Source: Spirochaetales bacterium (lineage in GTDB: Bacteria; Spirochaetota; Spirochaetia; Sphaerochaetales; Sphaerochaetaceae). Taken from it: a stretch of DNA of 64,000 nucleotides. Position numbers and translations under genes: made by a program. Location: NCBI GenBank assembly GCA_022788185.1, contig JALEVV010000027.1, positions 1-64,000 of the forward strand, in the 5' to 3' direction. Of the stretch, positions 1,430-31,616 are shown one piece after another (position 1 is the first letter of the stretch; each line of letters begins with the position of its first letter). The notes beneath the pieces were generated by a model. The model saw only the letters and a program-made list of their open reading frames with translations, made no database searches and had not been told where the DNA came from.

Positions 1430-2047
1430 ATGAAGGACTATCTGATTCTGAATCCCGCACTGGATTCGCTTTCCAATGAGCACACTCTCGCGCTTTTTGT
1501 GGGAAAGGGACAGGAGCATTTTGTGGATGGCTTTCTGTCCCATTTCACGGAGTGTGTGCTGAGGACCAAAGGGCTGGAAGGAAATATCCAGCCGCTGGCA
1601 CTTGAGTATCCTCCCCCGGGATCCACGCTCATTGACTTTGAGCTTTTCTTTGATTCGCCATTCTCAGCATCGCGACTGGCTGCATTTGAAGGGCTTTTCT
1701 TCATAGACCTCTCAGCCTATGCAGGCTATGAGAATTCCCGGGAACTGAGAATGCTTCGTGATTACATCGCAGCGGAAAAGGACATTACCTTCGTCATTGC
1801 CACGGCCGGTACCGAAAGGTCTGCGGCGTTAAAGGTCTTCGAAGCGGTTTCACGGGGGCAGACTGCGGAACTGGTAACGGTCGATACAGTGGCACTGAAG
1901 GCTGATCTCGGAATCAGGAAGGGGGTGCTCACCGCAGAGGATGAGGATCTTATCGACTCGCTTTCAGGCATGATAGCTGACAGGGGCGCGGTTGAAAGCA
2001 TTATCTCTGCCGTAATGGGCAGTGCCGGAAGAGAGGTGTCACGATGA
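1430..2047 (+). CDS. Hypothetical protein upstream of the coupling protein gene
   Basis: 205-aa ORF with AAGGAG upstream of ATG; overlaps the next ORF by 4 nt. Confidence 0.75.
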   Translation: MKDYLILNPALDSLSNEHTLALFVGKGQEHFVDGFLSHFTECVLRTKGLEGNIQPLALEYPPPGSTLIDFELFFDSPFSASRLAAFEGLFFIDLSAYAGYENSRELRMLRDYIAAEKDITFVIATAGTERSAALKVFEAVSRGQTAELVTVDTVALKADLGIRKGVLTAEDEDLIDSLSGMIADRGAVESIISAVMGSAGREVSR

Positions 2048-3882
2048 GTCTTGGTTTTCAGAGTCATGTAAGCCGGAAGAGTGCGGGCTTTCAGACCGTG
2101 AACGGTTTCAGGTCAAAGCTTACGCAGGTAGATTCCAGAGCGGAAGAGTGTGATAAGGCAGGTATCGTTCTTGATGTGGGAAGGGACGGAAAGGTGTGGT
2201 GCACGCCTCCTGAGGACCATGTGTTCATCACGGGTACAACCGGGACCGGTAAGACACGCCGCCTCATCGTCCCTTCAGTCCATATGATCGCATCTGCGGG
2301 AAACTCAATGGTCATCACCGATCCCAAGGGGGAAATATACGGCATGACTGCAGGAAACCTGAAAAAGAAGGGGTATGAGATATCGGTCCTGGACTTCCGG
2401 TCTCCTGCAACAAGCACCAGGTGGAATCCGCTCGCGATAGCGGAACTCTACTGGGAAAGAGGGGATGTGGCAGGCAGGGACAGGGCACTGCTGCTGATCA
2501 GGACGATTGCGGACATGCTCTCAGCCGGTGTCGCTTCAGATCGGGACAGGTTCTGGGAAGCGACCGCAAAGTCACTCTTCACGGGCTTTGCACAGTACCT
2601 GCTGCTCCACGGTGAAAAGGGCCAGCTTTCATTTGAAGCGATTTCGGACATTGCCTTCAGTGCCTTTGACTGCGTAAGTAGCTTAAGTGATGATAACCCT
2701 GATCAAAATAATGCATCAGAGGTGAAATCAAAGGCGGGCACGTTCTGGTACTACTACCACCACCTGAGAGATGATGATCCCATAAAGAAGGCGCTTGCAC
2801 CGATGATGATTTCATCCGCGCACCAGACCTTTGAGAGCATAAGAGTTACCTTTGAGTCCATGATGGCACCCTATGTGAACCAGAAGGGGCTCTGTGACAT
2901 GATGTGCGAATCCCAGATAAGTCTGGATTCTCTTGCCAGAGACAAAAGTGCGCTCTTCATCGTGATTCCCGATGACGAGAGCACGCTCTATCCCGTCATC
3001 GATATCATGATCGATGAGCTCTATACTGTGCTTATCGATGAGGCTGACAGAAACGGAGGAAAGCTGGAAAAGGAAGTCTTCTTCCTGCTTGATGAGTTCG
3101 GAACACTGGTATCGGAGACCAGGACCATAATTCCGGGCTTTGCCTCAATGATGTCCGCCTCAAGAAGCAGGGGAATCAGGTTTGCCATAGTGTGTCAGTC
3201 AGTCATGCAGCTGGTAAAGGCTTATGGCGACATGGCTGCCGTGATAATGGAAAACTGCCGCACCTGGGCAGTGCTTGCCAGCAGAAGCCATGAGCTCACG
3301 CTCATGCTTCAGAGGGCAGCAGGAGTGAGGGTGAGCGAGTTCTCGGGAAAGGAGATGCAGCTCTTTTCAGAAGCGGACTTAAGACAGCTTCAGCTGGGAG
3401 AAGTCCTTATCCTCAATGATAACGGCCCGTATCTCGGTCATATCATTGATATCTCCGAATACGGCTTTGATGAGGAAGCCTTTGAGAAGGTTCCTCAGAT
3501 TAACGTCGGCAGAAAGAAGCAGATGAAGAATAAGAAGTTCAGGTGGTATCCCGGACATGGGAATGTATCTGCTGAGAGAGAGGAATCGAACGAGAGTGTT
3601 CAGATAGCTGCGGATATATCATATGATTATCATCTTGGCTCCGCCCTCAGGGATGCCTTCATTGCAATCATGCTGTCTCAGGATGTGAATGAGAATAGGG
3701 ATGCACTCCTGAAGCGGACCCGGGATGCAGTCAATAAGTTCGCCATGCAGCCTGCGCTGAAGCCCTATATGGATACCTTCTACAGAGCATACAGGCACAT
3801 CGGTATGATGAGAGACGACGTCCTGGAAAAGTCGAGACTGCTGTACATTGATCCGATTGACGATGACTCAATTCCCTTCTGA
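2044..3882 (+). CDS. Type IV secretion/conjugation coupling protein, VirD4/TraG family ATPase
   Basis: Walker A GTTGTGKTRR, DPKGE motif, Walker B-like FFLLDEFGTL, VCQS motif. Confidence 0.88.
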   Translation: MSLGFQSHVSRKSAGFQTVNGFRSKLTQVDSRAEECDKAGIVLDVGRDGKVWCTPPEDHVFITGTTGTGKTRRLIVPSVHMIASAGNSMVITDPKGEIYGMTAGNLKKKGYEISVLDFRSPATSTRWNPLAIAELYWERGDVAGRDRALLLIRTIADMLSAGVASDRDRFWEATAKSLFTGFAQYLLLHGEKGQLSFEAISDIAFSAFDCVSSLSDDNPDQNNASEVKSKAGTFWYYYHHLRDDDPIKKALAPMMISSAHQTFESIRVTFESMMAPYVNQKGLCDMMCESQISLDSLARDKSALFIVIPDDESTLYPVIDIMIDELYTVLIDEADRNGGKLEKEVFFLLDEFGTLVSETRTIIPGFASMMSASRSRGIRFAIVCQSVMQLVKAYGDMAAVIMENCRTWAVLASRSHELTLMLQRAAGVRVSEFSGKEMQLFSEADLRQLQLGEVLILNDNGPYLGHIIDISEYGFDEEAFEKVPQINVGRKKQMKNKKFRWYPGHGNVSAEREESNESVQIAADISYDYHLGSALRDAFIAIMLSQDVNENRDALLKRTRDAVNKFAMQPALKPYMDTFYRAYRHIGMMRDDVLEKSRLLYIDPIDDDSIPF

Positions 3883-10509: not shown

Positions 10510-13320
10510 ATGATCTACAGAAAAACAGAAGCGAGGGTAATGGCATACCTTCCGGTTATAAAGAGCAGGATGTACAGGAGAGAAGGAACCTTCCCTCCTG
10601 TTTATGTAAAGAAATACAGGGAGTACACCGAAACAGAGACCGTCAATGTAACAAAAACAGATGGCTATCCGTACCGTTTCGGCTGTCAGGGAGAGGACAC
10701 GCTCTTTTCCTTCACCATGACAATTCCTGATGGGAATGAGGACTTTTATCTTCACTTCCCGCTGGAAACCGATGCGCTCTTAACCATAGACGGAAAGGCT
10801 GAGAGCAACATTAATCCAAGACACACTATGGTGTGCATGAATCCCTGGAAGGGGAAAACCATCGAGTGCGAAGTAAGGTGCTGGGATGGTTACATCTTCC
10901 CCGGCACCAGACCGCTTTTCGACACACACCTTCTTACCACTGTCGGCACACGGCAGGAGGATTATCCGATAATCCTCTCTGAGCCCGGGCTCCTTATAAA
11001 GAATCGGGAAAACTTTGCCCTTTACTACGATGTGCTGACACTTTCCGATCTGGCATCAAACCTTCCCGAGCACTCAATGGAAAGGGAAGTAATCTTTTCT
11101 TCATTAAGAAAGGCGCTTGCCTTCTACCCCATGTGCTCAGAAAACGATGAGGAGCAGAGTGCTTCTGAAGTAAGAAAGAAGATCGCACCGTTCTTTGAAG
11201 CAAAGAACGGCTTCTTTGCACCCTCATCATATTCAACAGGCATGTCCCATCTCGACCATGCCTGGCTCTGGCCGATCAGGGAAACGGAAAGAAAGGCGGT
11301 GAGGACCATCAGCGGCATGACTGCCCTGATGAGGGAGTATCCCGAGTTCATCTTCCTTTCAACCCAGCCAGTCCAGATGGAGTATGCCTTCAGGACAAGG
11401 CCTGAGCTCTATGAAAAGGTAAAAAACGCATTTGAAAAGTGACAGTGGGAACCCAACGGGGCAGGGCTTATCGAAGCTGACAATATGCTCTCATCGGGTG
11501 AAGGACTTATCAGGAACTTCCTTTACGGAAAGCAACTTACCGAGAAGCTCTTTCCGGGATACACCCCTGATACCTACGTCGTACCCGATTCCTTCGGCTA
11601 CAACGGAAACCTTCCGCAGATAATGAAGGGCTGCGGCATCGAATACTTCATCACAAGCAAGCTCAGCTGGAACGACACGAACCACTTCCCCTTTGAGAAG
11701 TTCATCTGGAGGGGAATAGACGGAAGTTCCGTGAAGGCCTACATGATACCGGGAACTTACAATGGTGAGATCACTCCCGGCTTTGTCATGTCGATGTGGG
11801 ATAAGATTACGAATAAGGATGTGCAGTCCGCCCAGATTCTCACAATAGGTGAGGGTGACGGAGGTGGCGGTACCACCCGGGATGACATTGAGGTCATGAG
11901 GCGCATTAAGGACATCCAGGGCTGTCCAAAGGCCTCCTGGTCAAAGGTCTCCGATTCCCTACGGAAGGTATTCTCAGAAATGGAAGATGTGCCTGTATAC
12001 GATGGGGAGCTGTACCTCGAGCTTCACCGTGGCACTTACACCTCCCAGGCCCGCACCAAGCAGGGCTACAGGAAGATTAACACCGCACTTCACAATGCGG
12101 AGTACCTCATCGCAGCTTCCTGGGCTGAAGGAAAGATCAGCGACAGTGAAGCTGAAAAGCTTAACGATGAAGTAAGGTCCCTCTGGAAGCAGACAGTTGT
12201 CTACCAGTTCCACGACATCCTTCCGGGCTCATCGGTTCATCAGGTGTATGAAGAGACTGAAGCATTCTTCTCCGCGGCCCTAAAGCGTCTAGATGAAATC
12301 ATAAGAAGCCTGGCCGGTGAGGGAGATGAAACACTCAATCTCTCACCTTTCATGCAGGAAGGCATAGCACCATACTCTTCTGGAAAAACAAAGACCGATT
12401 CCGTGAAGTGGGGCCAGGTCAGTTTATCACCTGACGGCAGGATCGAATCCCTGGTCTACAAAGGCCGTGAGGTTGTCTCTGATTCCTTCAACAGACTCAT
12501 GATAGGTGAGGATGTGCCATGCAGTTGGGATGCCTGGGATATCGAGAAGGATACAGTTGACAACTTAAGACCTGCACTCGCCAGGAACGGTAAGCTTGGT
12601 AAGGCTTCTTCCATAAACCAGCGGGCAGTGATCCACAGGGATAAGGCCCGTATCGATTTCGTTACCGACATCGACTGGCATGAGGACCATCAGCTCTTAA
12701 AGGCTTCCTTCGATACAAACATCAGAAGTCAGAATGCTGTCTTCGACATCCCGTTCGGTTTTGTATCAAGGAGCACGGGAAACAACAACTCCATTGAGGA
12801 AGCCCAGTTTGAGGTACCCGCACAGAAGTTCGTCGCCCTTTCGGATGAGAACGTGACGGTAGCCGTTCTTTCAGACAGTAAATATGGCTACAGTGCCAAG
12901 AACGGAACGCTCACTGTTTCGCTCCTCAAGAGCGCAAAGGCTCCCGATGCCACAGCCGATATGGGAAAACACTCCTTCACTTATTCCGTTTTCGTAACTG
13001 ACGAAGGAATAGGGGAGGTCATCAGGGAGGCTGAAGCCCTGAATAATCCATGTATCGTGAATACGGGAAAAGTAACTCCTCTAATTACGGTAAGCGATGG
13101 ACTTTCTCTTGAGACGGTAAAACTCTCAGAGCGCGGAGGCGACATCATCTTCCGTGTCAGGGAATACCTTGGCGTTCCCCGGAAAGGAACATACTCCTTT
13201 GCCGATTGCCTTGACATGTCAACTCTCACAGAGTGCATGATGACTGAGGAAAAAGACACAAATGTGACCTTCACCTTCCGTCCGTTTGAAGTAAAAACTT
13301 ACAGGATAAGAAGAAAGTAA
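10510..13320 (+). pseudogene. Alpha-mannosidase (GH38), interrupted by an in-frame TGA
   Basis: ORFs 10510-11442 and 11485-13320 share a frame, separated only by TGA 11440-11442: ...VKNAFEK*QWEPNGAGLIEADNMLSSGEGLIRNFLYGK. GH38 signatures SHLDHAWLWPIRETERKAVRT and DSFGYNGNLPQIMKGCGIEYFITSKLSWND. Confidence 0.85.
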
Positions 13321-13455: not shown

Positions 13456-14445
13456 ATGGGAATGCGGCCATACACATGTCTTGAGATCTGCGCAGGTGCC
13501 GGAGGCCAGGCCTCCGGTCTTGAAAGTGCGGGCTTTCATCATGTCGCACTGGTCGAATATGAGAAGGCGTACTGTGACGTTCTGAGGGCCAATAGGCCTG
13601 ACTGGAACGTCATCGAAAGTGACGTGAGGGATTTTGATGCCACCCCATATAAAGGAGTGGATCTATTTGCAGGAGGAGTTCCCTGTCCTCCGTTCTCAGT
13701 TGCGGGAAAGCAGCTGGGACGGGATGACGAAAGGGATCTTTTCCCTGAAGCCCTGCGTCTCATAGGAGAGTGCGGCCCCCGCCTCGTCATGCTTGAAAAC
13801 GTCAGAGGGTTCCTGGATCCGGCATTTGATGATTACAGACACTTCATAATGACCTCACTGGAAAACCTCGGATATGACGTAATGATCAAACTCCTTAATG
13901 CATCTGATTACAAAGTGCCGCAGCTGAGGCCGCGTGCAGTCATAATAGGGCTGAGGAAGGATCTTGCCATGACCTTCTCTTACCCCGAAGGAAGCACCGG
14001 AGAAGCACCCACTGTGGGAGAAGTCCTTTATGATCTTATGAGCGCAAACGGCTGGGAAGCTGCTGATGAGTGGGCCCATAAGGCCAACCGCATCGCACCT
14101 ACCCTTGTCGGAGGCTCAAAGAAACATGGAGGTCCCGATCTCGGTCCCGTAAGGGCCAGGAATGCCTGGGCCGCCCTTGGAGTGGACGGAAGAGGTGTCG
14201 CCAATGAGGCACCATACCCTGGCTTCACCGGGATGCCCCGCCTGACAGTGAGAATGCTTGCACGACTGCAGGGATTTCCCGATGACTGGACCTTCGGCAT
14301 CAGAAAGACAGCGGCATGCAGAATGATAGGAAATGCTTTTCCTCCTCCGGTTGCCAAAGCCATAGGGGAAAAGCTCATGGAGTGTCTTTCAAATGCAGAA
14401 AAAGATCAGGAATGCACGCAGGAAGTTTCACGCGGTATTGTGTGA
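13456..14445 (+). CDS. DNA (cytosine-5-)-methyltransferase
   Basis: EICAGAGGQASGLESAGF, GGVPCPPFSVAGKQ catalytic PC motif, LENVRGF, GNAFPPPVAKAIGEKL. Confidence 0.95.
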   Translation: MGMRPYTCLEICAGAGGQASGLESAGFHHVALVEYEKAYCDVLRANRPDWNVIESDVRDFDATPYKGVDLFAGGVPCPPFSVAGKQLGRDDERDLFPEALRLIGECGPRLVMLENVRGFLDPAFDDYRHFIMTSLENLGYDVMIKLLNASDYKVPQLRPRAVIIGLRKDLAMTFSYPEGSTGEAPTVGEVLYDLMSANGWEAADEWAHKANRIAPTLVGGSKKHGGPDLGPVRARNAWAALGVDGRGVANEAPYPGFTGMPRLTVRMLARLQGFPDDWTFGIRKTAACRMIGNAFPPPVAKAIGEKLMECLSNAEKDQECTQEVSRGIV

Positions 14446-15991: not shown

Positions 15992-17299
15992 TCATCCTCC
16001 AATTATCCTGTTTCTGATCACATCCATCGGTGTCATCCCTGATTCGTTTCTGTCTTCCAGCAATGAGTGAGGAAGGAACCTTAATGCATTCACAATATTG
16101 CAGAACTCATTTTTCAATGCCATAAGGTGAAGTGCATTATTTCCTTTCATGTCCTTTGCGTATGGGGCAGCTCCGATGGAGATCAGTTCTGCAATGCCGT
16201 CAGGATTGTCGGTCGCTGCGATAAGCAGTGCCGTACTTCCTGATTTGTTCCTTATTTCTAGATCCGGGGTTTCCCCGATAAGAATATGGTAATCAGTGGG
16301 AGCAAAGTTATCATTTGCAACTGCATACATAAGCGCTGTCATTCCACATTCATTCTGCTTCCTGCAGTATGAAGGATGCATTACAGCCTTCAGAACTGCA
16401 GGATCGGTTTTTCTCAGCCATACATAATCCGTGAATGCCTTATAAGCCTCATCGGTTCCGGGAGTCAGCTGTTCAAGGCCGAAGATCTTTCTGAGAAGTT
16501 TCATGTTCTTTTCAGGATAAACCGACAACTCAAGACTGCTCCTGTCAGCAAATTCCATGATTGCATCAAATGCCGCTTCATTGTCACTTCGCACACATGC
16601 ATCCAGCAACCGGTTTATATCACGCTTCATCCATTTCCGCTTCAGCAGCGGGAGTGTCTTTTTAAGCAGCCGTTTCATATCAGGATCCGCAATGCTTCTG
16701 TAAAACAGACCTCTTCTTATTTTATTTACAGTATCAGGTGTTGCTTCTGCAGAAACCAGATCAAGGAAATCACAGCACCAGGAATCCATATAGGAAGCGA
16801 AAAATGTTCTGTACCCATCATCCTCATCAATATCAAAAGGCACTCTGAAGACTGACTCTCCGTTATTCCGTACTTTGTGATAATAACTTATGTGCGCAAA
16901 TACTTCTTCGTACGGGTCTCCAAGTTCCGCATAGTGCTTTCTGAAGAAAGAAACCATTTCTGAAGGTGTGAGGCTGAAAAGTGATATCCGGGGCGGATAC
17001 ATGCCGAAAGAGTATCCGTTTTCTTCCAGCAGACTGATGATTTTCCCTGATGCCATCTCATTGACGGCAAACTCATCAGCCTGAGGATGATGACCGTCAT
17101 CCCGGACGTGAATCATATTAAGGCATTTATTCACGAGTCCTGCATCATCGTTTTTTATACCTGCAAGAAGAGCATCGAAAACATCCTCTTCCGTTGCATT
17201 ACCGTTTTCAATAAGACCTGAGTAAAAAAATGATATGTTCGTGTTCATAACATGATGGTATAACTTCATGTGTATAATAATCTGTACAGATATTATCAT
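15992..17299 (-). CDS. Ankyrin-repeat protein
   Basis: C-terminal repeats NECGMTALMYAVAN, NKSGSTALLIAATD, MKGNNALHLMALKN, NESGMTPMDVIRN. True start may be Met at 17269 or 17248. Confidence 0.78.
   Translation of the reverse strand: MIISVQIIIHMKLYHHVMNTNISFFYSGLIENGNATEEDVFDALLAGIKNDDAGLVNKCLNMIHVRDDGHHPQADEFAVNEMASGKIISLLEENGYSFGMYPPRISLFSLTPSEMVSFFRKHYAELGDPYEEVFAHISYYHKVRNNGESVFRVPFDIDEDDGYRTFFASYMDSWCCDFLDLVSAEATPDTVNKIRRGLFYRSIADPDMKRLLKKTLPLLKRKWMKRDINRLLDACVRSDNEAAFDAIMEFADRSSLELSVYPEKNMKLLRKIFGLEQLTPGTDEAYKAFTDYVWLRKTDPAVLKAVMHPSYCRKQNECGMTALMYAVANDNFAPTDYHILIGETPDLEIRNKSGSTALLIAATDNPDGIAELISIGAAPYAKDMKGNNALHLMALKNEFCNIVNALRFLPHSLLEDRNESGMTPMDVIRNRIIGG
17274..17296. promoter_or_regulatory. 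Inverted repeat, candidate WYL-regulator operator
   Basis: ATAAT-A-ATCTGTACAGAT-ATTAT between the divergent ankyrin and WYL genes; 12-bp perfect core palindrome. Confidence 0.45.
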
Positions 17300-17339
17300 A
17301 CTATCAGGATTGAACCTGAGGGGTAATGGAGGAGGGAAA

Positions 17340-18347
17340 ATGGCTTATCTGAGAAAACTGGTTAAACTTGCAGCCCTGCTGGCATCCGGAAACGGGGTAA
17401 CGGTTAATGAACTCCTGAATAACAGTGAATTTGGATATCACAGCAGATCGAGCATCTATCAGGATTTCAGGAATCTTGAGAACAGCTTTGGGTTATTTCC
17501 TGAAAGATCGGATGAGTTAAGGGGAAAAAGCGGCAGGGAAGCAGTATACAGGATAGACGGTGAACAATGGAAAAACTTCCGTTCAGAGTTCATTACATGT
17601 ACATTCGATACCAAGGACAGACGGCGTCTTGCATTTCTTCTCGAAAGCATAGGAAGCACTTCCCCGTTATTCGATGTTTCCGCTGATGATGTCATTGTCA
17701 AACTGCAGGGCTTACTTGGTGACATTAATGTCAGACCATCACGATACGGAGGGTATTTCAGCCTTGATACTGCCATGATCCTGGATAAGCTTCTGGAAGC
17801 TCAGGACACGAAGAAACTGATCAACATCACATATGATGGGACAGAAAGGGAAGTATTCGTCATAAGATGCTTCGTCTTTTCCGGTGGTACATACTGCTAT
17901 GTGATGAAAAAAACAGGATGGGTGTACATGATGTCCATTCCACGGATTGAAAGGGTCGGGCCGGGACAGCTTCTGAATACCAGAAACATACCTTACCCTG
18001 AACCAAGTATCGATGTGGAAAAAGCCCTTGCCGATCCTTTCGGGATTGTCAGGGGAGAAACTGAGTTTGATGCAGTTGTCCGGCTGAGTGACACACAGGC
18101 ATTCTATGAAAAGGAAAAACTTTGGCCTGACAGCGTTTCAATTGAAAGGAAAGGGGACCACTGGCTTTTCAAAGTCCATACATGCGGAGTATACTGGCTT
18201 AAAAGATGGGTAATGTCCCTGGGGACTGAAGCGGAACTGCTGGAGCCCGGCTGGCTTAGGGATGAGATAAGGTCTGACATGGAAACAATGTCAGTTCTGT
18301 ATAATGGTCATGAAAAAGGAGAAAACTCATGGACTGTCAGCAATTGA
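17340..18347 (+). CDS. WYL-domain transcriptional regulator
   Basis: N-terminal HTH-like region (SRSSIYQDFRNLENSFGL), WYL-like core (LINITYDGTEREVFVIRCFVFSGGTYCYVMKKTGWVYMMSIPRIERV), C-terminal region; GGAGGAGGG before ATG 17340. Confidence 0.78.
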   Translation: MAYLRKLVKLAALLASGNGVTVNELLNNSEFGYHSRSSIYQDFRNLENSFGLFPERSDELRGKSGREAVYRIDGEQWKNFRSEFITCTFDTKDRRRLAFLLESIGSTSPLFDVSADDVIVKLQGLLGDINVRPSRYGGYFSLDTAMILDKLLEAQDTKKLINITYDGTEREVFVIRCFVFSGGTYCYVMKKTGWVYMMSIPRIERVGPGQLLNTRNIPYPEPSIDVEKALADPFGIVRGETEFDAVVRLSDTQAFYEKEKLWPDSVSIERKGDHWLFKVHTCGVYWLKRWVMSLGTEAELLEPGWLRDEIRSDMETMSVLYNGHEKGENSWTVSN

Positions 18348-19099
18348 TAAGAGATCAGGAACTGGTTAACGATTACGTAAAGCGGATAGGGGAAAGCTTT
18401 ATTGCCGAATCCGGCAGTAAGGCATACCCGATATATGATGGTGTGATGAATCCGCAGCTTTATGCAGAAGCTAAACCGAGGATTTCATGGGTTCTGAAGG
18501 AGCCATACGATGTGATTGACGCTGATGGTACCCCGAAAGGAGGGGACTGGCCACTGAGTGCCATTTATGATACGGAAAATGTTTATGACAAAATAAAAGG
18601 AAACCGGACACTGAATACCATGTCGTATGTAACTTATGGAATCATGAACAACCTGGAATACGCTGATATGCCGTGGATATACGAAGACCCTGCTGTTGCC
18701 AACTCATTAAAATCAATAGTTCATATGAATATCAGCAAATTCCCCGCCAAAACATACACATCTATGGGAAATCTTGCTGCATATTATGAAACCTGGCGTC
18801 CGATCCTGCTTTTCCAACTGAAGGTATATAAACCTCAGGTCGTGATATTCGGTAACGTAATGCCATATTTTCAGAAAGATCTCGGACTGGAAGAAATCAT
18901 GAAATCTGATGATGATAGAATGGTTAATTATGCAGTGAAGGATAACTGCCTCTATATTGATGCATGGCATCCCTGTCTGCGGGGGAAGTCAGATGCCTAT
19001 AAAGAGAAATACGTGAATGGTATTGTAAAAACTGTAATGGAACACGCCTCAGAAATAAACCTTGATTTTCCTGCAAATCCGTTTAAGCCAGGCTTTTGA
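18329..19099 (+). CDS. Uracil-DNA-glycosylase-superfamily-like protein
   Basis: KPRISWVLKEPYD, NISKFPAKTYTSMGNLAAYYETWRPILLFQLKVYKPQVVIFGN, C-terminal DAWHPCLRG, in UDG-like motif order; overlaps the WYL gene by 19 nt. Confidence 0.55.
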   Translation: MDCQQLIRDQELVNDYVKRIGESFIAESGSKAYPIYDGVMNPQLYAEAKPRISWVLKEPYDVIDADGTPKGGDWPLSAIYDTENVYDKIKGNRTLNTMSYVTYGIMNNLEYADMPWIYEDPAVANSLKSIVHMNISKFPAKTYTSMGNLAAYYETWRPILLFQLKVYKPQVVIFGNVMPYFQKDLGLEEIMKSDDDRMVNYAVKDNCLYIDAWHPCLRGKSDAYKEKYVNGIVKTVMEHASEINLDFPANPFKPGF

Positions 19100-20072
19100 T
19101 CAGCAGGCTTTCAACGATATCGTCATCTGAGAGACTGTCATTAGGCTTGAAGTTGTAAACATACTGATTATGATAGCTCAGGAAATCGCCGACACCGTCC
19201 GGAACTTCCCTGAGCTTAATTGTATCATCGATGTGGAGCCTGTTGAAATTGCTCCACATCTGCTTTGATTGCTGCTCTGGGAGAATGATGTTCCCGGTCT
19301 TTGGTGAGAAAGAGATGATGCCCCTGTCGAATAGCTTGTCAAAGTTAGGCGTCAGCAGGAGAGAGTTCCTGGGATCAACACGTTCCTCGTTCGTGGATTC
19401 TCTCCATGGTTTGATATGGCTGGCAATTAGCCAGTCCGTATCATCAACACCGGTAACCGCACACTGACTGTGCCAGAAGGAAATCACATCCTTCCTGTAC
19501 TGAGTCTGGGCAGTCCTGACATTCATCAGAAGCTTTGATTCCGTTTTTTCAGGGACCACGATCTTACCATATGAGGGACTGACTGTCTGGACTTCATCCG
19601 AGGTAATGATCTTCTTCTCTGCAAATGAGTGTATTGCAGCCCATTCAGGAAGATCAAAGATAACATGTGATGGTTTTCCCGGCTCCCAGTTGATCTGCAT
19701 TCTCAGAGGTACGGCCCTTCCATAGTAAATATATGGCTGTTTCCTTGCTTTCTGGATTAACACGAATGTGTCGTGGGTACCGTCCTGAAGCTTTTTCTCT
19801 GCTGCCTTCTGACTGTTCTGCCCGGACCAGACCAGCAGGGACCCATCAAGGTGATCCTCATAGTTCTGAACGGAGTATGTGTCTTTTTCAAGAGTGACAA
19901 GCAGGATCTGAAAATCTGAATTCCTGCGGGTAAGAACACCCTTGCGGGAGATTGCGGTAACATCACAGTCCATCAGTTTTGCAAGATCCATGAGGGTATA
20001 GCTTTCACCCAATATGAGGGCATCCCTCAGTTTTCTTGCATAGCCATCCTGTTTTTCCGCAACACCATTCAT
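19083..20072 (-). CDS. HNH endonuclease with DUF3427-like N-terminal region
   Basis: HNH: CAVTGVDDTDWLIASHIKPWRESTNEERVDPRNSLLLTPNFDKLFDRGIISF. N-terminal DFQILLVTLEKDTYSVQNYEDHLDGSLLVWSGQNS resembles DUF3427. Confidence 0.78.
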   Translation of the reverse strand: MNGVAEKQDGYARKLRDALILGESYTLMDLAKLMDCDVTAISRKGVLTRRNSDFQILLVTLEKDTYSVQNYEDHLDGSLLVWSGQNSQKAAEKKLQDGTHDTFVLIQKARKQPYIYYGRAVPLRMQINWEPGKPSHVIFDLPEWAAIHSFAEKKIITSDEVQTVSPSYGKIVVPEKTESKLLMNVRTAQTQYRKDVISFWHSQCAVTGVDDTDWLIASHIKPWRESTNEERVDPRNSLLLTPNFDKLFDRGIISFSPKTGNIILPEQQSKQMWSNFNRLHIDDTIKLREVPDGVGDFLSYHNQYVYNFKPNDSLSDDDIVESLLIKSLA

Positions 20073-20331: not shown

Positions 20332-21120
20332 ATGACTGAAGAACTGTACCTTGATTACCTGAGATATATTTATCGACAAAAAAATGGTTCATTCCTTGCT
20401 GACAGCTCTGTAAAAAAATATGGCAATGAAGCAATGCGACTCATTAATGGGTATATCGTGAAGCATTCATCTGCTATTGGTGTTTCATCCTTATATGAAG
20501 TAAATGATATTTTTCAATTACGGGCCATCAAAGATATGCTGATGAATGATCCTGGTTTTGTGAGGGTTGATACTGATGGACATCGTATGTATTCTGTTGG
20601 TTTGAAAAGATATACTGAATTTGCTGAAGGGGAATTGTTTAAAGGTCAGGAAAAGATTCTCTACAAATTGGATAAGCCTGAGCCTGTTATTCTGCAAGAT
20701 GCTGAAGCAATTGCTAAAGAGAGCGTTAAGAAAGTGATAACCACTCATGAACGGGATAGAATCAAGGTTATTCAGGTGGAGAAGGCCTGTAACTATACCT
20801 GTCAGATTGATCCTGAACACAAGACTTTCATCGTTGACAGAACCACCCATCAATATATGGAAGGACACCATATCATCCCGTTAAGTATGCAAGGAGAGTT
20901 TATGTACAGCCTTGATTGTTACGCAAACATTATTGTGCTTTGTCCTACCTGCCACAGGTTTTTTCATTATGCTGAAAAATCAAAAAGAACAGATAAACTT
21001 AAGATGCTTTACGATGAGCGAGCAGAGCGTTTGTGCAATTCAGGGATAAAACTTGACCGCCATGATTTCCTGGAACTCGTTGATCGAAGTTCTTCAGGCA
21101 TTGTCTATAGTTACAGTTAA
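20332..21120 (+). CDS. HNH endonuclease
   Basis: CNYTCQIDPEHKTF...YMEGHHIIPLSMQGEF...ANIIVLCPTCHRFFHYA. Confidence 0.8.
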   Translation: MTEELYLDYLRYIYRQKNGSFLADSSVKKYGNEAMRLINGYIVKHSSAIGVSSLYEVNDIFQLRAIKDMLMNDPGFVRVDTDGHRMYSVGLKRYTEFAEGELFKGQEKILYKLDKPEPVILQDAEAIAKESVKKVITTHERDRIKVIQVEKACNYTCQIDPEHKTFIVDRTTHQYMEGHHIIPLSMQGEFMYSLDCYANIIVLCPTCHRFFHYAEKSKRTDKLKMLYDERAERLCNSGIKLDRHDFLELVDRSSSGIVYSYS

Positions 21121-21133
21121 AGCCAAATTTCTG

Positions 21134-22033
21134 ATGGATGGTGAAATAGGAGGTTTGAGTCAAGTAATCATGAAGCAGGTCGTCATACCACCTTTAAACT
21201 TTACCAACTCCCGTCCAATGGAGTTCAATACTTATTCTCCTGAGCAGCACGCATGTGTTGTTTATGGCTGGATGGTGGATGGAAAGACAAATCGTGAACT
21301 TGACAGTCAGTACCTGTGTCCGGGGCATAATTACCATGGGTATCAGTCGATGGGTATTCTTCATTACCTGGGACTGGTACGTGAGCATCAGGGGATTTTC
21401 AGGGGAATGACACCGTTTGAGATACTGGCAAGCCTTTCCGAATACGCTTCTGATCCGAACTACTGCATGATCTTCTATTACATCAGGGACTATATTGCTG
21501 CACATGGCTCCGTGGTGGATCTTGATTGCAGTGAAGTGGAAAAGAGTTTCCCGAAGGATTCCCTTCGTGAGCAGTCCTGGATTAAGAATACCTGGACCAG
21601 AAATGTAATGGATAATGATATCAACGGAAGGCTGATATCATTGTCTGATGAGGGTGGGGCAGACAAGACCATCATGTGCAGGGATGTTGTTTATCACTAC
21701 AGTTCACAGACCATTAAGGAATCCCTGAAATGTCTTTATGATTTTCACTGTCAGGTCTGCGGTGAAGTCATACTTCGGACAGGCTGGAGCGGTAAGTACT
21801 CCAGATCAGAGCAATGGGTATACCTGAATGCGGATGTGCATCACATCCTTCCATTGTCAAAGCATGGTCCCGATCTCAGGTCCAATATGCTTTGTCTCTG
21901 TCCCACATGTCACAGGAAATTCCATACAGGTGAGTTTGAACTCCGGAATAAAGGTAAGGATACCATCTGTGTTGATCAGCTGCTTGGAATGGAAAAGCAG
22001 ATAACCAAAAAACACGTAATTGAATTGTATTAA
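21134..22033 (+). CDS. HNH endonuclease
   Basis: CQVCGEVILRTG...DVHHILPLSKHGPDLRSNMLCLCPTCHRKFHTGEF. Start uncertain (ORF track 21053; also 21170). Confidence 0.8.
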   Translation: MDGEIGGLSQVIMKQVVIPPLNFTNSRPMEFNTYSPEQHACVVYGWMVDGKTNRELDSQYLCPGHNYHGYQSMGILHYLGLVREHQGIFRGMTPFEILASLSEYASDPNYCMIFYYIRDYIAAHGSVVDLDCSEVEKSFPKDSLREQSWIKNTWTRNVMDNDINGRLISLSDEGGADKTIMCRDVVYHYSSQTIKESLKCLYDFHCQVCGEVILRTGWSGKYSRSEQWVYLNADVHHILPLSKHGPDLRSNMLCLCPTCHRKFHTGEFELRNKGKDTICVDQLLGMEKQITKKHVIELY

Positions 22034-23121: not shown

Positions 23122-25950
23122 ATGTTATCAAAATATAGTGTGGAGAAAGCTTTCAGTGAACCGATAATTGGGACTGTGGCTTTCTCCGAAAATGAGATTG
23201 AGTATACCAAGGATAAGACCCGCAAATGTGTAGAAAAGTATTGTATTTCCAGTAAGGATGTTTCTCCTGACAATGACAGATTGGTTTTCCTTGGATGTGT
23301 GAATGCACTCAAGGAATGGGAAAAAGCTGATACTAAAAGCCTGTTTGCCTATTTGGCAAAAACTTTCGATACTGCTGAAGTAACTAAGTTCAGGAAATAT
23401 ATCTGTTCTGTCATAGACAGACTCTCCAATACAGATTTGTTTGTAGTAAAGGAAGGGAAGAATTACTACGCAACACTTCTGTTTCATTCCCTTGCCCCAA
23501 AGGAGTCGGCATACAGTTTTTTTGAACTTTGCTGGAATATTTTCTGCAATGAGCTGGGAGAGGTTTATGTTCCGGAGAATCTGATATATCAGAAAATGGC
23601 AGCCAAACTCAAGGAACTGTTTTCCGAAACAACTGAAAAAAGTGAAACTGAAATCTGTCAGATGAAACTAGGCTCCAATGTTTATTCCTTATTTTTGGGA
23701 ATGAAGGTGATGGCAAGGGAAAAACCGGAGCTGCTTGCGCGACTTATCGACAGAGTTATATGTCTTATTGATAAACTGTTCTATGGTCAGAAACTTGACC
23801 ATAACATTGATTATCTCTCTAAACTCGTTGCCTCATGGTGGAAATGCGAGAAGCAAAACACTCTGGGGGAAGAAGTTCGTACTGTACATGGCAGACAGGC
23901 CATTGTATCTGATGAAAGAAACATAATTCCTCATTTCAGATATAACGATGAAGATGAAGTAGTATTGGAGATACCTGCTTTTGCCATCGATGTTGATAGA
24001 AAATGTGATGTAATCCTTCGAATCCATAATGATGAGGATAGCAGTTATTGCGACCAGAAAATGCATGTCAGGACATCTGGATTATTATGTTCCGTTAAAG
24101 CATTTGAAGTGCCACTGGATAAATATCATTTTCCCATGCTTCGAGTTGAAATCTGGGCTGATAACAGATGCGTCCATAACTCAAAACATTCATTGTACAG
24201 GGATTTCATAGTATTCTCAGATAAGGGAAGAGAGATACGGCATCAGATCATTCAGCCAGGCAGATATTTCATGTACTGTCTGGCTTCCGGAGAGCTGAAG
24301 CAGAATCCGGATCTGGAGAAGTGCGCTAAGTATTTGTATGAATTTGAGGCAAAAGAAGGTGATGTACTCAGGAGTGGAAGTTATGCTGTATTTTTCAGTG
24401 ATGGGAAAAACAAAGCTGAGCTATGGATGGATTCTTCCATATGCAAGAATATCAGCTTCATTCTTAACGGTATCCCTTATTCTGTGGTTGATGGTGAAAT
24501 AAATATTGTACTTAACAGATTCGAAAACATAAATGATTATGGGATATCAATAAACAGCACAAATTTTCGTCTGGGGGAGTTTAACTTTACTGAAAGAGAG
24601 CAATGGTATTCATTTAACCTGACAGATTGCTGTATGCCAGGAGAACCAGTATATATTCGTGTGTTCAGGTTCTCTTCAAATAAAACCGTGTTTGAGCTTT
24701 ATCTGATACGGTTTGAAGATGTTAATCTAGAATTCAATCAAAAGTATTACTATGGTTCCTATTCAGGCAACGTAAAATTCAGGACGGCAAGATTTGATGA
24801 GTGCAGAAACTTCTGCTCCGTCGATGATCAGGTATTAATTCCTTTTGGAAAAGGAGAAATAGCCATTGACATACCTTCTGTATCCTGGAAAATGACAGGA
24901 TTTGGGCTTATGACTTCTGAGATTTCCCATCCTCTGTGGTATGAGAACATAAGTCCTGCTGCTGTAATGGAGTTTTCAGTTCCAGCCGGAATGGATAAAA
25001 CTCTGGTTCTGTCTGATCAGGGGAATGTACAAATTAATAAGAAAGGTGAGTATCTGATTGGTGCATATCTTCATGAGCTTCGGGCAAATGGACAGAAAGA
25101 ATCAGTGACAGCTTTTCTAAAACTGTCCGAAGGGAATATGCTTCCCATGTTTGAATGCTGCCTAAAGGAAAAATTCATTTCACCTCCTGTAATAATAGCC
25201 GGAAGTGATTGCAGAATTAGCTGGTATAACAAGGAGTATTTTGTCGGTCCTAAGGATTCCCGCTTCAGAGTTGATCTGGAGACTCCTACCGGAATACGTA
25301 AGGACATATTTCCCAATCCCGTTAATTTTCAGTCTTATTATTTTCCCGAAGTGGAAGGAAAGTGTTCCTGCAAGGTAATATATCTTAAGGAATATGGATT
25401 TGAAATCGAAGATCAGGTGGTTCTATGTCTTGATTTCTTCGCGGGTGATGAAAAATCTGTCAGGTTCAGGAATAAATCGTTTAAGCTCGACAGAGTAATC
25501 TTAAAAAACAGCTCTGAAATACGAAGCATTACATGGATTAATGTTGACCGTATTTCTTTTGATCAGGAGCTAAATAGATATACATGTACTTTGTACTTCA
25601 TGAATAAAGGAAACCGTATTGATTTCTACCGACATTATGATACTCAGACAAAGCTGACTCCTGTCGGATTTGATCTTCTTGAAGACGGAAGAATTAAACT
25701 GGTTCATGGATGTGATACAGGAATGGGAAAACCTTTCTATCTGGAGAATAATGGTCATTTGTCTCCTGTTGGAGATATGGAAATTGAATACTTCCTTCCT
25801 TATACATTTGTGATCCAGGAAAAGAAAGTAATCAAGCGGAATGCTGATTCAGATAATATTCATAGTTCAATCGAGCAAAAGAAAGACAGAGTTCCGAAGA
25901 CAATTTATGTTTCATCGGAGAAAATCAAAAAGTCAGGTTACAGGATATAA
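23122..25950 (+). CDS. Large protein of unknown function, possible DruH-like partner of the helicase
   Basis: 942-aa ORF ending 14 nt before the next ORF. No recognised catalytic motif; long beta-rich-looking central and C-terminal regions. Confidence 0.7.
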   Translation: MLSKYSVEKAFSEPIIGTVAFSENEIEYTKDKTRKCVEKYCISSKDVSPDNDRLVFLGCVNALKEWEKADTKSLFAYLAKTFDTAEVTKFRKYICSVIDRLSNTDLFVVKEGKNYYATLLFHSLAPKESAYSFFELCWNIFCNELGEVYVPENLIYQKMAAKLKELFSETTEKSETEICQMKLGSNVYSLFLGMKVMAREKPELLARLIDRVICLIDKLFYGQKLDHNIDYLSKLVASWWKCEKQNTLGEEVRTVHGRQAIVSDERNIIPHFRYNDEDEVVLEIPAFAIDVDRKCDVILRIHNDEDSSYCDQKMHVRTSGLLCSVKAFEVPLDKYHFPMLRVEIWADNRCVHNSKHSLYRDFIVFSDKGREIRHQIIQPGRYFMYCLASGELKQNPDLEKCAKYLYEFEAKEGDVLRSGSYAVFFSDGKNKAELWMDSSICKNISFILNGIPYSVVDGEINIVLNRFENINDYGISINSTNFRLGEFNFTEREQWYSFNLTDCCMPGEPVYIRVFRFSSNKTVFELYLIRFEDVNLEFNQKYYYGSYSGNVKFRTARFDECRNFCSVDDQVLIPFGKGEIAIDIPSVSWKMTGFGLMTSEISHPLWYENISPAAVMEFSVPAGMDKTLVLSDQGNVQINKKGEYLIGAYLHELRANGQKESVTAFLKLSEGNMLPMFECCLKEKFISPPVIIAGSDCRISWYNKEYFVGPKDSRFRVDLETPTGIRKDIFPNPVNFQSYYFPEVEGKCSCKVIYLKEYGFEIEDQVVLCLDFFAGDEKSVRFRNKSFKLDRVILKNSSEIRSITWINVDRISFDQELNRYTCTLYFMNKGNRIDFYRHYDTQTKLTPVGFDLLEDGRIKLVHGCDTGMGKPFYLENNGHLSPVGDMEIEYFLPYTFVIQEKKVIKRNADSDNIHSSIEQKKDRVPKTIYVSSEKIKKSGYRI

Positions 25951-25964
25951 CCAGGGAGGAAAGG

Positions 25965-28900
25965 GTGTTTAATCCGGCAATCGCATCAAACAACATAAAG
26001 AATGAGTTTATCGATTACATAACCACAGTTTATGGGTTTGAGGATAAACAACTATTGGAAAACTTTCGATCTGAACTGAATACTACAATAGCTCAGGGGC
26101 CGTTTCTGCAGTTGAACTATAACTTCAGGACTGCGGAAAGTATTAATGAACTGATTGATCAGAATATTCTGTCTCCATTGTTTCGTGACCTGGAGGAAGG
26201 AAAACCTGATACTCCTCTGTATCGTCGTGTTCTGCCTTTGGACAGACCGCTATATCACCATCAGGTAAATGCGATCAAAAAGATATCGCAGGGCTGCAAT
26301 GCCGTAATTTCCACAGGTACCGGTTCCGGAAAGACAAACTGTTTTCTCATCCCCGTAATCAATGAACTTCTCAGAGAACAGGAAAAAGGAACTCTTGATG
26401 ATGGCGTAAGAGCAATCTTCATATATCCAATGAACGCTCTTGCCAATGATCAGATAAAAAACATCAGGACACTTCTGATGAAATATCCTGCTATCACATT
26501 TGGTGTTTACAACGGCGGTACATTGTATGATGATGACTCTGCAAATCTTTCCTATGAGAAGCTTCACAGCGATGATCCTGTTCCTGAGTTAAGGACGCCT
26601 TTGGATAACGAGAGAGTATCAAGAGACACACTAAAAAAGCGTCCTCCTCATATTCTTTTTACCAACTATTCTATGCTCGAGTATCTTCTGTTAAGGCCGA
26701 AGGATGATGTTCTGTTCAGTAACAGTAATTTCAGGTTTGTTGTTCTTGACGAAGCTCATGTTTATTCAGGTGCGACTGGTATAGAGACGTCTTTTCTTCT
26801 CAGAAGACTGAAAGCCCGTCTATCCGCTAACAAAAAGCCTCAGTTCATTCTTACCAGTGCCACATTGGGTGGAGAAAACAGTGAGGATGATATTGTAACC
26901 TTTGCGCAGAATCTGTCTGGCGAGGAATTCAGCAGGGACTGCATAATCAAATCGGAAAGGGAAGGGATTATTCTTCCAAAAAACAAAATATCTGTCCCTT
27001 ATAGTGCACTCAATGAGCTTTCAGACGAAAGGAATATAGCAGGAGACGTTCTGATTAAATATGGATTGCCTTTTAATACCAAAAGTGATGAGGCTGGCAT
27101 ATTATATGATCTCATGATCCATACGGCAGAATTCGATTGGATCTCTCATAAGGTAGGAACTGTAACGAGCATCAGAGAGCTATCAGAGGAGCTTCATATA
27201 TCTGAAAATGCTGTTATTGACATAATTTCACTGTGCACGAGAGCAGAAAGAAATGGTAAATGCCTATTGGATGCAAAATATCATTTCTTCCTGAGAGCAC
27301 TGGATGGCTGCTTTCTTTCATTGTCACCATCAAGAACGCTGTCACTTACACGAAAACAGACCTGCACTGAAAATGGGAAGCAGTATATTGTTTCGGAAAT
27401 AGCTGTATGTGAAAACTGCGGGAAGATTGCGTTTACTGGTATTCGGGATAAGAAAGGATTCCTGAAGAATGCACCGTCCTTTGCTGATTCAGAGTATTAC
27501 GTTCCGATTGATGATGGTTGGAATTCTAAACTGATAATTGATGATGAAGATGAATTGAATACTGATGATAATGATTCTATGTTCTATCTTTGTCCTCATT
27601 GTGGGATGATGTTACCTGCAGATGAGGATCTTCCTTCATCATGTGAGTGTGGGTCGGAAGAATTCATAAAGGTTGTCAAAGCCAAAGCAGGAAAACGTGG
27701 AACAAGCTGTGTTGATTGCAGTGTTGGACAATACAGAAGGTTTTATCTTGGTAATGATGCTGCAACATCAGTAATAGCAACTGCCTTATTTGGAGAGTTG
27801 CCTGAACATAAGGTCAGTATACAGAGTGATGAATATGTTCCAATAACATCAGATGATGACCCATTCATGATAGAAACAGATTCAGTAAGGAAAAAAGAAC
27901 CGATGAGTTCCGGACAGCAGTTTCTGGTGTTCTCCGACAGCAGACAGGAGGCCGCAAAATTTGCCTGTTATCTCAGAAGTTCATATACGGAATTCCTCAG
28001 GAGAAGAGGGATGTATCATGTCCTCGCAAACCTGGGTAATGCCGACTGGGCCATTACTGATTTCGTGAAGGAGCTTTCAAACTTCTTTGCTGACAATAAA
28101 ATGTTTGCCAAGAAGAAAAATGATGGGAGCAATCTGGATATGGAAAGCCGAAGACAGGCCTGGATTGCAGTACTAAATGAAATGAGCCGCTTCAATTCAT
28201 CTACATCACTGACCTCATTGGGTTTTATTCAATTTTATCTGAAAACTGCCGACCAATTGGCTAGGAATATCCACAACAGCCAAAAATATAATGTGAAAAA
28301 AGTCAGCGAGGAAAGTATCAGCACTTTGCTGAATCTGCTTGCTTTTCAGTTTATTAAGGCAGGTGTAATACAGCCTGATGAAAATGTAACGCTCAGTGAT
28401 GGAGACAGGGAATATATTTTCTATACTCCAAGGCAGCAAACCATCTCCCTTAATGCATCAGATGGAGTGTCTGCGCACTGGATGCCAAAAGATATTCTTT
28501 TGAAGGAAGGTGTCCGTACTGCACATTCCAGCAAGATAGAATATATAAAACGCGTTCTTGGCTGTGATGACAATACTGCAGGAGATTTCCTGGAGCAGTT
28601 TTTCCTATACCTTAGTAAAAAAAATAAAAATGAAAATGCTTTTCTTGTTCTAAAAGACAAAGGCTATGTTCTTCGTACGGCATCTTTCGGCATAAGAACA
28701 CCTAAATCAAAGGATGCCAAGTGGTATAAATGCCGGAAGTGTGGACACATTTCACAATTCCATTTGGATCATCATTGTGTACTCCTGAAATGTGAAGGGG
28801 ATGTGATGGAAGTTGATCCCATGGAACTCAGTAAGAATAATCATTATGCACATCTGTACCAGAGTGAGCAGCTGAATAATCTGTATATTGAGGAGCATAC

Positions 28901-30728
28901 TGCACAGCTGGGGAAAGAGAACAGTCTCCGGTATCAGGAAGAATTCGTTAAGAAGGAAATTAACGCTCTTTCATGCTCTACGACCTTTGAGATGGGCGTT
29001 GATGTAGGTGACCTGGAAACCGTATTCCTGAGAAATGTTCCTCCGATGCCTTCAAACTATGCTCAGCGTGCAGGCCGGGCTGGCCGTTCAAAAGATGCTT
29101 CCGCTTATGCAATCACATATGCCAAACAGAGTTCTCATGATCTAACATACTTCAATGATCCTAAAAAAATGATTGTTGGTACTATCAATCCTCCTCTGTT
29201 CAAAACAGAAAATGAAAAGGTGTTCCGCAGGCATATTTATGCTGTGGCCTTAAGTATGTTTTTTGCAGAATACGATGAAATGTATAATCATAATGACGCA
29301 GAAATTTTTCTGAATCAGAAGGGGTACGAGATATTTTCTGAATGGCTCAGATCAAAGCCTGAAAACCTTAAAAAGATGCTGTGGAGATCTTTTTCTGATA
29401 ATGAACTTTATTATACCCTGGACATAGATGGTTTTGGTTGGCTCGATGGCCTGATTGGACCTGAAGGTGTTCTTACAACACATATAGAGTATTATAATAA
29501 AGTAGTCCAGGAGCTCAGAAAACAGGAAAGGGCTGCCGCAGGTAATGGAAGTGAATTGAACCAGATTCAGAGAAGAATGAAGCTTTTCACAAGGAATGAA
29601 TTGGTGGATTTCCTTGCAAGGGGGAATATTCTTCCAAGGTATGGTTTCCCTGTCGATACTGTTGAACTGTATCAGAATTATTCTTCAGTAAATGGAGAAA
29701 AAGATCTCAGGCTTAATCGTGACCTGCTTATGGCGATTGCTGAATACGCACCTTCATCTGAGATCGTTGCTAACGGAAAGCTTTATACAAGCAGATATAT
29801 CAGGCCCGAAAAGACAGATTCTCAGACTGCAAATTTTCATGAATCATTCCTTGCAATCTGTGAAGAGTGCGGTTCGATGAATTGTTCTGAAGCTGTTGGT
29901 AAAGAAGGGCAGGAATGTATTGTATGTGGTAGGATTATCCCAAGGGATAGTTTTCATAAGAGCATTGAGCCAAGGGCCGGTTTCATTGCTGAACCTGATG
30001 TTAAGGATGTTCCGATGAAGAAACAGGAGAAGAACTATAAAAGTGATGTCTTCTATCTTCATAACAGTGAAGCCCGGTCGGTAGAGAAGCATTCATTTAT
30101 TTGCGGTGATGTTATTGTAGATATAGAGTCCACTGTAAATGATTCCCTTATGGTTCAATCTGAGTCATCATTTTATGTGTGCGGTAAGTGTGGATATGCA
30201 AAAGAAAGCAGTGAGGATTTTTCCGTTAAAGGTCCGGCCAGAAAAAGAAAAAGCTTCAATAGAGTTGATTATCCCCATAAGACACCAACCGGTGCTGAAT
30301 GCAGCATGGAACATCTTGAGCAAAGAAAAATACATCACACTTTTCATACAGATGTGGCCAGAATAGGATTCAGCTGTGATACAGGAAATTACAATACTAT
30401 GCTTTCCGTTATGTATGCGATTCTTTACTCAATAAGTGATGTACTGAATATTGAAAGAAAAGATATCAGTGCATGTTTGACGAGAACGAAGGGCCGGCAG
30501 AACGACTGGCAGATAATCATCTATGATGCAGTCCCCGGAGGTGCCGGTCATTCAAGACGAATTGTCAGTAATGATGGTGCTGTTTTGTCAAGGGTTTTTG
30601 AAGCAGCCTACTCTAGAGTAAGTGAATGTGAATGCGATCCTTCATGTTATAAATGTCTGAGGAGTTATGAGAACCAGAAGGTGCATGATAAGCTTAACAG
30701 GCAACTGGCTAAGGATTTTCTGGCTTGA
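25965..30728 (+). CDS. DEAD/DEAH helicase with C-terminal DUF1998-like domain, possible DruE-like
   Basis: STGTGSGKT, VVLDEAHVYSG, LTSATLG, YAQRAGRAGRS; several Cys clusters; C-terminal IIIYDAVPGGAGHSRRI...CECDPSCYKCLRSYENQKVHDKLNR. Confidence 0.85.
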   Translation: MFNPAIASNNIKNEFIDYITTVYGFEDKQLLENFRSELNTTIAQGPFLQLNYNFRTAESINELIDQNILSPLFRDLEEGKPDTPLYRRVLPLDRPLYHHQVNAIKKISQGCNAVISTGTGSGKTNCFLIPVINELLREQEKGTLDDGVRAIFIYPMNALANDQIKNIRTLLMKYPAITFGVYNGGTLYDDDSANLSYEKLHSDDPVPELRTPLDNERVSRDTLKKRPPHILFTNYSMLEYLLLRPKDDVLFSNSNFRFVVLDEAHVYSGATGIETSFLLRRLKARLSANKKPQFILTSATLGGENSEDDIVTFAQNLSGEEFSRDCIIKSEREGIILPKNKISVPYSALNELSDERNIAGDVLIKYGLPFNTKSDEAGILYDLMIHTAEFDWISHKVGTVTSIRELSEELHISENAVIDIISLCTRAERNGKCLLDAKYHFFLRALDGCFLSLSPSRTLSLTRKQTCTENGKQYIVSEIAVCENCGKIAFTGIRDKKGFLKNAPSFADSEYYVPIDDGWNSKLIIDDEDELNTDDNDSMFYLCPHCGMMLPADEDLPSSCECGSEEFIKVVKAKAGKRGTSCVDCSVGQYRRFYLGNDAATSVIATALFGELPEHKVSIQSDEYVPITSDDDPFMIETDSVRKKEPMSSGQQFLVFSDSRQEAAKFACYLRSSYTEFLRRRGMYHVLANLGNADWAITDFVKELSNFFADNKMFAKKKNDGSNLDMESRRQAWIAVLNEMSRFNSSTSLTSLGFIQFYLKTADQLARNIHNSQKYNVKKVSEESISTLLNLLAFQFIKAGVIQPDENVTLSDGDREYIFYTPRQQTISLNASDGVSAHWMPKDILLKEGVRTAHSSKIEYIKRVLGCDDNTAGDFLEQFFLYLSKKNKNENAFLVLKDKGYVLRTASFGIRTPKSKDAKWYKCRKCGHISQFHLDHHCVLLKCEGDVMEVDPMELSKNNHYAHLYQSEQLNNLYIEEHTAQLGKENSLRYQEEFVKKEINALSCSTTFEMGVDVGDLETVFLRNVPPMPSNYAQRAGRAGRSKDASAYAITYAKQSSHDLTYFNDPKKMIVGTINPPLFKTENEKVFRRHIYAVALSMFFAEYDEMYNHNDAEIFLNQKGYEIFSEWLRSKPENLKKMLWRSFSDNELYYTLDIDGFGWLDGLIGPEGVLTTHIEYYNKVVQELRKQERAAAGNGSELNQIQRRMKLFTRNELVDFLARGNILPRYGFPVDTVELYQNYSSVNGEKDLRLNRDLLMAIAEYAPSSEIVANGKLYTSRYIRPEKTDSQTANFHESFLAICEECGSMNCSEAVGKEGQECIVCGRIIPRDSFHKSIEPRAGFIAEPDVKDVPMKKQEKNYKSDVFYLHNSEARSVEKHSFICGDVIVDIESTVNDSLMVQSESSFYVCGKCGYAKESSEDFSVKGPARKRKSFNRVDYPHKTPTGAECSMEHLEQRKIHHTFHTDVARIGFSCDTGNYNTMLSVMYAILYSISDVLNIERKDISACLTRTKGRQNDWQIIIYDAVPGGAGHSRRIVSNDGAVLSRVFEAAYSRVSECECDPSCYKCLRSYENQKVHDKLNRQLAKDFLA

Positions 30729-30929: not shown

Positions 30930-31616
30930 TCAGGTTTTCCGATTTCTGATTAATAATTCTTCTGTTTCCGTGAACCCCATCTGGAAAAACAGCTTGTCTT
31001 TTTCCGTATTTTCTTTCGATGCCTTGAGTTCGGTAATGTTTCTCCTATGTGCTTTAGTGATCATGAAGGAGAGGGCGGCCCGGGCAAGTTCCCTGTCGTT
31101 CAGGTCAGTCTCCAGCTGAGAGTCCTTAAGGGCCACATAACCCGCCTTGATCCCGTCAACAGAGACAGTGTAATTGTCTTCAGACGATTCAGTGATGGTG
31201 ATGTGCATTACCTTTCTTATTTCTTCCTCAATCCTTGCAATGCACTCCTCAGTATCCTTTTTGATGGACTTTCCCCAGAACCTGATCACGGTCCATCCAA
31301 GGGCGGCAAGATCGGTGTCGTTCTTCCTGTCCCGCTCCATGTTGCGGGCTATCTTGGCAATCCAGAAATCAGGGTTGTTTCCTTTGGCAAGTGTTTCCTT
31401 CAGACTGTCCCAGTCCTTTCCATGAAAGAATTCACCGTCACAGAATACCGCGATGCGGTACTTCGTGAGGGTAATGTCGGGTTTGCCCGGAAGATCCTTT
31501 TTGTTCTTGCGGTATCTTATGCCCCGTGCCCAGAGGGCATGGCGGAGGAGGACCTCTATGGATGTGTCCTTTGCCCTTATCCTGCTCATATTGTAGTGCC
31601 GTGCTTCAGATACCAT
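30930..31616 (-). CDS. Vsr-type endonuclease with a C-terminal extension
   Basis: MSRIRAKDTSIEVLLRHALWARGIRYRKNKKDLPGKPDITLTKYRIAVFCDGEFFHGKDW...GWTVIRFWGKSIKK; about 90 further residues at the C-terminus. Confidence 0.85.
   Translation of the reverse strand: MVSEARHYNMSRIRAKDTSIEVLLRHALWARGIRYRKNKKDLPGKPDITLTKYRIAVFCDGEFFHGKDWDSLKETLAKGNNPDFWIAKIARNMERDRKNDTDLAALGWTVIRFWGKSIKKDTEECIARIEEEIRKVMHITITESSEDNYTVSVDGIKAGYVALKDSQLETDLNDRELARAALSFMITKAHRRNITELKASKENTEKDKLFFQMGFTETEELLIRNRKT

Follow-up and report, generated by a model that had tools for sequence, protein, structure and literature searches.

A divergent Druantia III-like gene pair with a nuclease-less DruE-type helicase and a putative DruH-like sensor in a member of the Spirochaetales

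One known relative of the locus studied here is Druantia type III of Escherichia coli, for which recent work described a helicase-nuclease, DruE, and a sensor, DruH, whose nuclease activity depends on dimerisation. The domain order of E. coli DruH is helical, Ig array, helical, and the C-terminal residues R1064 and K1067 help to form an ATP site where the two subunits of the dimer meet; DruH was reported as the faster-diverging protein, and synergy against T3 came mainly from DNA engagement by DruE (PMC13192584). A second described pair, MSMEG_1253/1254 of Mycobacterium smegmatis (1132 and 1667 aa), has a helicase with DExD/H, Helicase_C and DUF1998 domains only. This DruH–DruE pair protects its host, is triggered by the minor tail protein Gp25 and blocks phage DNA circularisation and replication (PMC13316683). 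Bell et al. (2025) distinguished a "Druantia Type III-like" branch of the YprA family, the helicases of which are mostly nuclease-free (PMC12458937).

We analysed a window of 64,000 nucleotides from a Spirochaetales bacterium of the family Sphaerochaetaceae (contig JALEVV010000027.1). The original prediction had pointed to two tandem genes 14 nt apart, and open reading frames at 23122–25950 and 25965–30728, both on the + strand, bear this out. We interpret the pair as a two-component module of the Druantia III-like/III-B branch, consisting of a divergent DruH sensor and a nuclease-less DruE with a putative antiphage role, and assign this reading a probability of about 0.72. The features of the module are:

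23122–25950, + strand: 942-aa partner, DruH-like putative sensor, ATG start (open reading frame, partner-family profile and profile comparisons; no library match)
23131–23880, + strand: helical domain at the N-terminus of the partner, aa 4–253 (AlphaFold2 model, family conservation)
23932–25599, + strand: Ig/FnIII-like array of beta-sandwiches in the partner, aa 271–826 (AlphaFold2 model and Foldseek)
25708–25947, + strand: low-confidence tail of the partner, aa 863–942, without a C-terminal helical domain (model, profile comparison, family lengths)
25951–25964, + strand: 14-nt gap with the ribosome-binding site GGGAGG (sequence)
25965–30728, + strand: DruE-like (YprA family) helicase, 1587 aa, GTG start (open reading frame, PADLOC, Pfam, structure match, tree)
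26250–26882, + strand: RecA1 domain, aa 96–306, with Walker A K123 and DEAH 262–265 (Pfam and motif positions)
28980–29087, + strand: RecA2 motifs V and VI, aa 1006–1041 (Pfam and motif positions)
30414–30659, + strand: MZB/DUF1998 zinc-binding domain, aa 1484–1565 (Pfam)

The helicase had the full set of SF2 motifs: GTGSGKT (118–124), YPMNALA (154), TNYSMLE (233), DEAH (262–265), TSAT (297), TTFEMGVDVG (1006) and QRAGRAGR (1034). Its Cys motifs comprised eight CxxC pairs, CEC at 560, and CEC at 1555 with CYKC at 1561. Pfam searches detected DEAD (4e-25), Helicase_C (3e-10) and MZB/DUF1998 at 1484–1565 (2e-13). Complete SF2 motifs, Cys clusters and a C-terminal Cys motif of DUF1998 type were present, as noted in the original prediction. 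Canonical DruE, about 2100 aa long, carries two PLD domains at its C-terminus; these, a feature of Druantia III-A, were absent from the window helicase according to Pfam. The protein stops 22 aa past the MZB/DUF1998 domain, and therefore there is no space for a fused nuclease. With PADLOC, the DruE1 and DruE3 models scored 577 and 536 bits and the top non-Druantia model 84. The closest solved structure (1e-70) was 9tu7, a 2108-aa helicase; it is presumably E. coli DruE, given that DruH 9tud has an accession from the same series. The helicase core and MZB domain are common to MrfA/YprA and would also suit a role in DNA repair or another housekeeping process, with the partner as an accessory to the helicase; the score of 577 bits for DruE against far lower ones for other families, together with the patchy occurrence, low GC, recent gain and island setting described below, makes this very improbable.

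When the genome collection was scanned, 80 related loci were obtained. A tree was built from 102 helicases; in it, the window helicase and 76 relatives formed one clade of 77 rows, next to but separate from canonical DruE III, Druantia I and ARMADA (SH-aLRT 97; the tree search was a quick one that used no mixture model, and the program warned of long branches). The nearest rows belonged to Bacillota and Bacteroidota and were 47–51% identical to the window helicase, and members from Mycobacterium and Streptosporangium fell inside the clade. PADLOC and the tree both make the 1587-aa protein a DruE-like helicase, though not one of the canonical DruE III clade, and it lacks a C-terminal nuclease. 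The original prediction of a Druantia III-like system or a divergent relative was therefore right in the divergent sense. By its features, the window clade probably corresponds to the published III-like/III-B branch, whose representative is GIH50614.1: a nuclease-less DruE-like helicase is the commonest state in that branch, and it too is placed beside Druantia III, Druantia I and ARMADA. Shortened and N-terminally extended partners are not described in the available, helicase-centred text of PMC12458937.

ARMADA types I and II likewise have a YprA-family helicase rich in zinc motifs; the ARMADA components sought together with the window module (BrxHII-like helicase, PglX methylase genes, fused Vsr) were not found. 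The same genome carries, on another contig (L024:3104-11077, contig C44), an ARMADA I-like pair: a YprA-like helicase of 1716 aa and, after it, one of BrxHII/DpdE type with 936 aa. No match was obtained when E. coli genomes were searched by megablast with an ARMADA helicase.

The 942-aa protein, in which the original prediction had recognised no motif, indeed gave nothing above noise with the DruH, Pfam, NCBIfam and PHROG models; matches to AbiEi (0.017) and Med1 (0.25) were dismissed as noise. Searched alone against 296 genomes of the phylum it retrieved only itself, and a search of plasmids and viral contigs gave no match; its relatives were therefore reached via the helicase. Most of the 80 helicase loci, and nearly all of those that include the upstream side, have a large gene, mostly of 900–1500 aa, directly upstream of the helicase, and this recurrence argues that the pair is more than a chance arrangement. 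An iterative profile started from the 942-aa protein collected 57 family members in 57 loci, window included, all upstream of the helicase, from Bacillota, Actinomycetota, Chloroflexota, Bacteroidota and other phyla. The best-conserved region across the family was the N-terminal domain. The partner is the faster-diverging gene of the two (19–27% identity vs. 36–49% for the helicase). Upstream genes of 1523–1650 aa in three loci (L113, L119 and L122) were rejected as DruH; they resemble ARMADA II methylase genes, and the one tested, that of L119, encodes an IIG/DrmMI-type methyltransferase.

PADLOC DruH3 models matched none of 26 partner-family members at E 0.1, and the positive control, L134, scored 2539 bits. 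We compared three profiles: A2, the window partner family (26 rows); A4, mainly actinobacterial and chloroflexal partners (17 rows); and A3, canonical DruH (8 rows, including E. coli DruH adjoining Zorya II), which matches the solved DruH 9tud. The comparison of A2 with A4 gave E 6e-25, by which the window family is firmly tied, at the profile level, to the actinobacterial partners, and that of A4 with A3 gave E 1e-5. Between A2 and A3 the match was weak (E 2e-4, probability 44%), with 485 collinear columns starting near the N-terminus; reversed and column-shuffled controls gave E 0.7–1. The merged A2+A4 profile kept the register but scored lower against canonical DruH (E 0.008). Homology of the 942-aa protein with canonical DruH is, on these comparisons, likely but not certain. 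The complete failure of the DruH models, the weakness of the direct profile match and the C-terminal regions, between which profile comparison found no match, could also be explained if the partner were an unrelated Ig-array protein joined to a DruE-like helicase in a separate defence family, rather than a DruH descendant. We consider this quite unlikely, as two related partner profiles match DruH collinearly in the same register, far above the controls, and both gene order and domain order are as in Druantia III. The 942-aa protein is best read, though not beyond doubt, as a divergent, C-terminally shortened DruH. Of the two options left open by the original prediction, a divergent DruH is thus favoured over a new partner family; the proposed HMM comparison gave strong matches to DruE, none to the DruH models and the weak profile match to canonical DruH. 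The PADLOC DruH models miss a partner family present in several phyla, and Druantia III-like systems are therefore likely under-counted.

The AlphaFold2 model of the 942-aa protein (mean pLDDT 74.6, pTM 0.47) contained the helical N-terminus and Ig-like core of the DruH layout given in PMC13192584. Beyond position 780 the model had no helix as long as four residues. Canonical DruH (1119 aa) has a C-terminal domain that contributes to the ATP site, and this domain is missing in the window partner. In 27 of the 28 family members matching the profile to its end, at most 122 residues were left past that end. Foldseek returned generic Ig/FnIII arrays only, with low TM scores, and therefore we make no claim at the fold level; DruH 9tud was not among the 50 best fold matches, from a library that possibly does not contain it. 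The model of a mycobacterial relative, L064 (pLDDT 81.1), showed a helical N-terminal domain, an Ig array and a helical C-terminal domain at 814–1126, arranged as in E. coli DruH (PMC13192584).

The M. smegmatis system resembles the window pair in having two genes in the same order and a helicase with DExD/H, Helicase_C and DUF1998 domains only. The mycobacterial homologues L060 and L064 belong to the window helicase clade and to the linked partner family. The M. smegmatis partner is of 1132 aa, and the mycobacterial relative L064 has the C-terminal helical domain, whereas the window partner of 942 aa does not. Size, domain content and a small number of residue positions suggest that the M. 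smegmatis pair belongs to the window clade. K119, A292, A1016 and C1516 occurred together only in L060, and the DruH residue positions gave nothing clear. With canonical Druantia III of E. coli (PMC13192584) the window pair shares the gene order, with the putative DruH before DruE, a helicase core with DUF1998, and a partner with a helical N-terminus and Ig-like domains.

Neither protein of the window pair has a recognisable nuclease domain. From the sequences we infer that the pair also lacks nuclease activity, which goes a step further than domain content because PMC13192584 leaves the nuclease site of DruH unplaced. By analogy with the trigger and block reported for M. smegmatis (PMC13316683) and with DNA engagement by E. 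coli DruE (PMC13192584), we propose that the pair may act in defence as a sensor-gated translocase. The partner would most likely be the phage sensor, with its Ig array recognising a phage protein. Once activated, the sensor would license loading of DruE on ssDNA-containing phage replication intermediates, and ATP-driven translocation or occupancy by DruE could then block phage DNA circularisation and replication. Any DNA cutting would be left to host or third-party nucleases.

Sister loci differed in their additional parts. In six of them (L099, 13199–14923; L032; L033; L039; L076; L090) a gene for a NERD nuclease-SF1 helicase lies within 13 nt downstream of a DruE with a tail of 120–160 aa; the association between gene and tail has p = 2e-4, a statistic that ignores kinship among the loci. 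The NERD nuclease-SF1 helicase is a possible third component there. The DruE of L051 had a longer, Vsr-like tail, as judged by eye. Partner N-termini also varied. Those of L030, L031 and L099 have extensions of 440–590 aa with two or three RNA-polymerase-alpha-CTD-like repeats, those of L034 and L043 carry tandem repeats with a CxxC motif, and those of L034 and L035 a BspA-type LRR, features that are odd for an intracellular defence protein. A tentative and rather doubtful reading of the whole is that a sub-branch of Druantia III, mainly in Bacillota, lost the DruE nuclease and the DruH C-terminal domain and defends by sensor-gated translocation without cutting, and that its sisters re-equip themselves with a NERD-helicase gene or a Vsr-like tail and swap the N-terminal modules of the sensor. 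A common branch without the cutting-linked parts would separate DNA engagement from cleavage. Widespread and little studied, such a nuclease-less Druantia III-like branch would make it possible to test cleanly whether translocation is enough for protection.

The pair was acquired horizontally. The GC content is 39.9% in the module vs. 49.5% outside the island; in G510, a genome of the same genus, the module is absent, and about 0.5 kb separates the dehydrogenase gene from ilvN on either side of the site, vs. about 12 kb in the window; and the partner was present in 2 of 139 genomes of the host's family. Within the family the module was present in just one further genome (G482; L022:942-16067), where it adjoins brxA, brxB and brxC and has a partner of 1170 aa. 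Upstream of the window module, genes for a WYL/WCX-type regulator and three HNH endonucleases (17268–18347, 19083–20072, 20332–21120 and 21053–22033) resemble a defence island. Genes for a cytosine-5 DNA methylase (13456–14445) and a Vsr mismatch endonuclease (30930–31616) flank the module about 17 kb apart. The same defence pair might have the DNA cut in trans, by a nuclease from its neighbourhood or from the host (Vsr, HNH or a housekeeping enzyme) that is recruited to DNA unwound by DruE. The supply of nuclease looks exchangeable because sister loci vary between a NERD gene beside a tailed DruE and a Vsr-like tail, and the Vsr and three HNH genes share the island of the window module. We regard this as rather unlikely: the Vsr gene is convergent to the module and not co-transcribed with it, and the window neighbours do not recur beside the module in related loci, where a distant Vsr, HNH or WYL match was found in four loci only and none was adjacent. 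For this lack of recurrence, Vsr and HNH were also rejected as fixed components.

Two other parts of the window can be mentioned. At 10510–13320 a GH38 alpha-mannosidase extends over two open reading frames (Glyco_hydro_38N positions 5–69 and 89–269), probably owing to a frameshift or an assembly error. A gene at 2044–3882 encodes a TraG/VirD4-like coupling protein of type IV secretion and hints at a conjugative element at the left end of the window.
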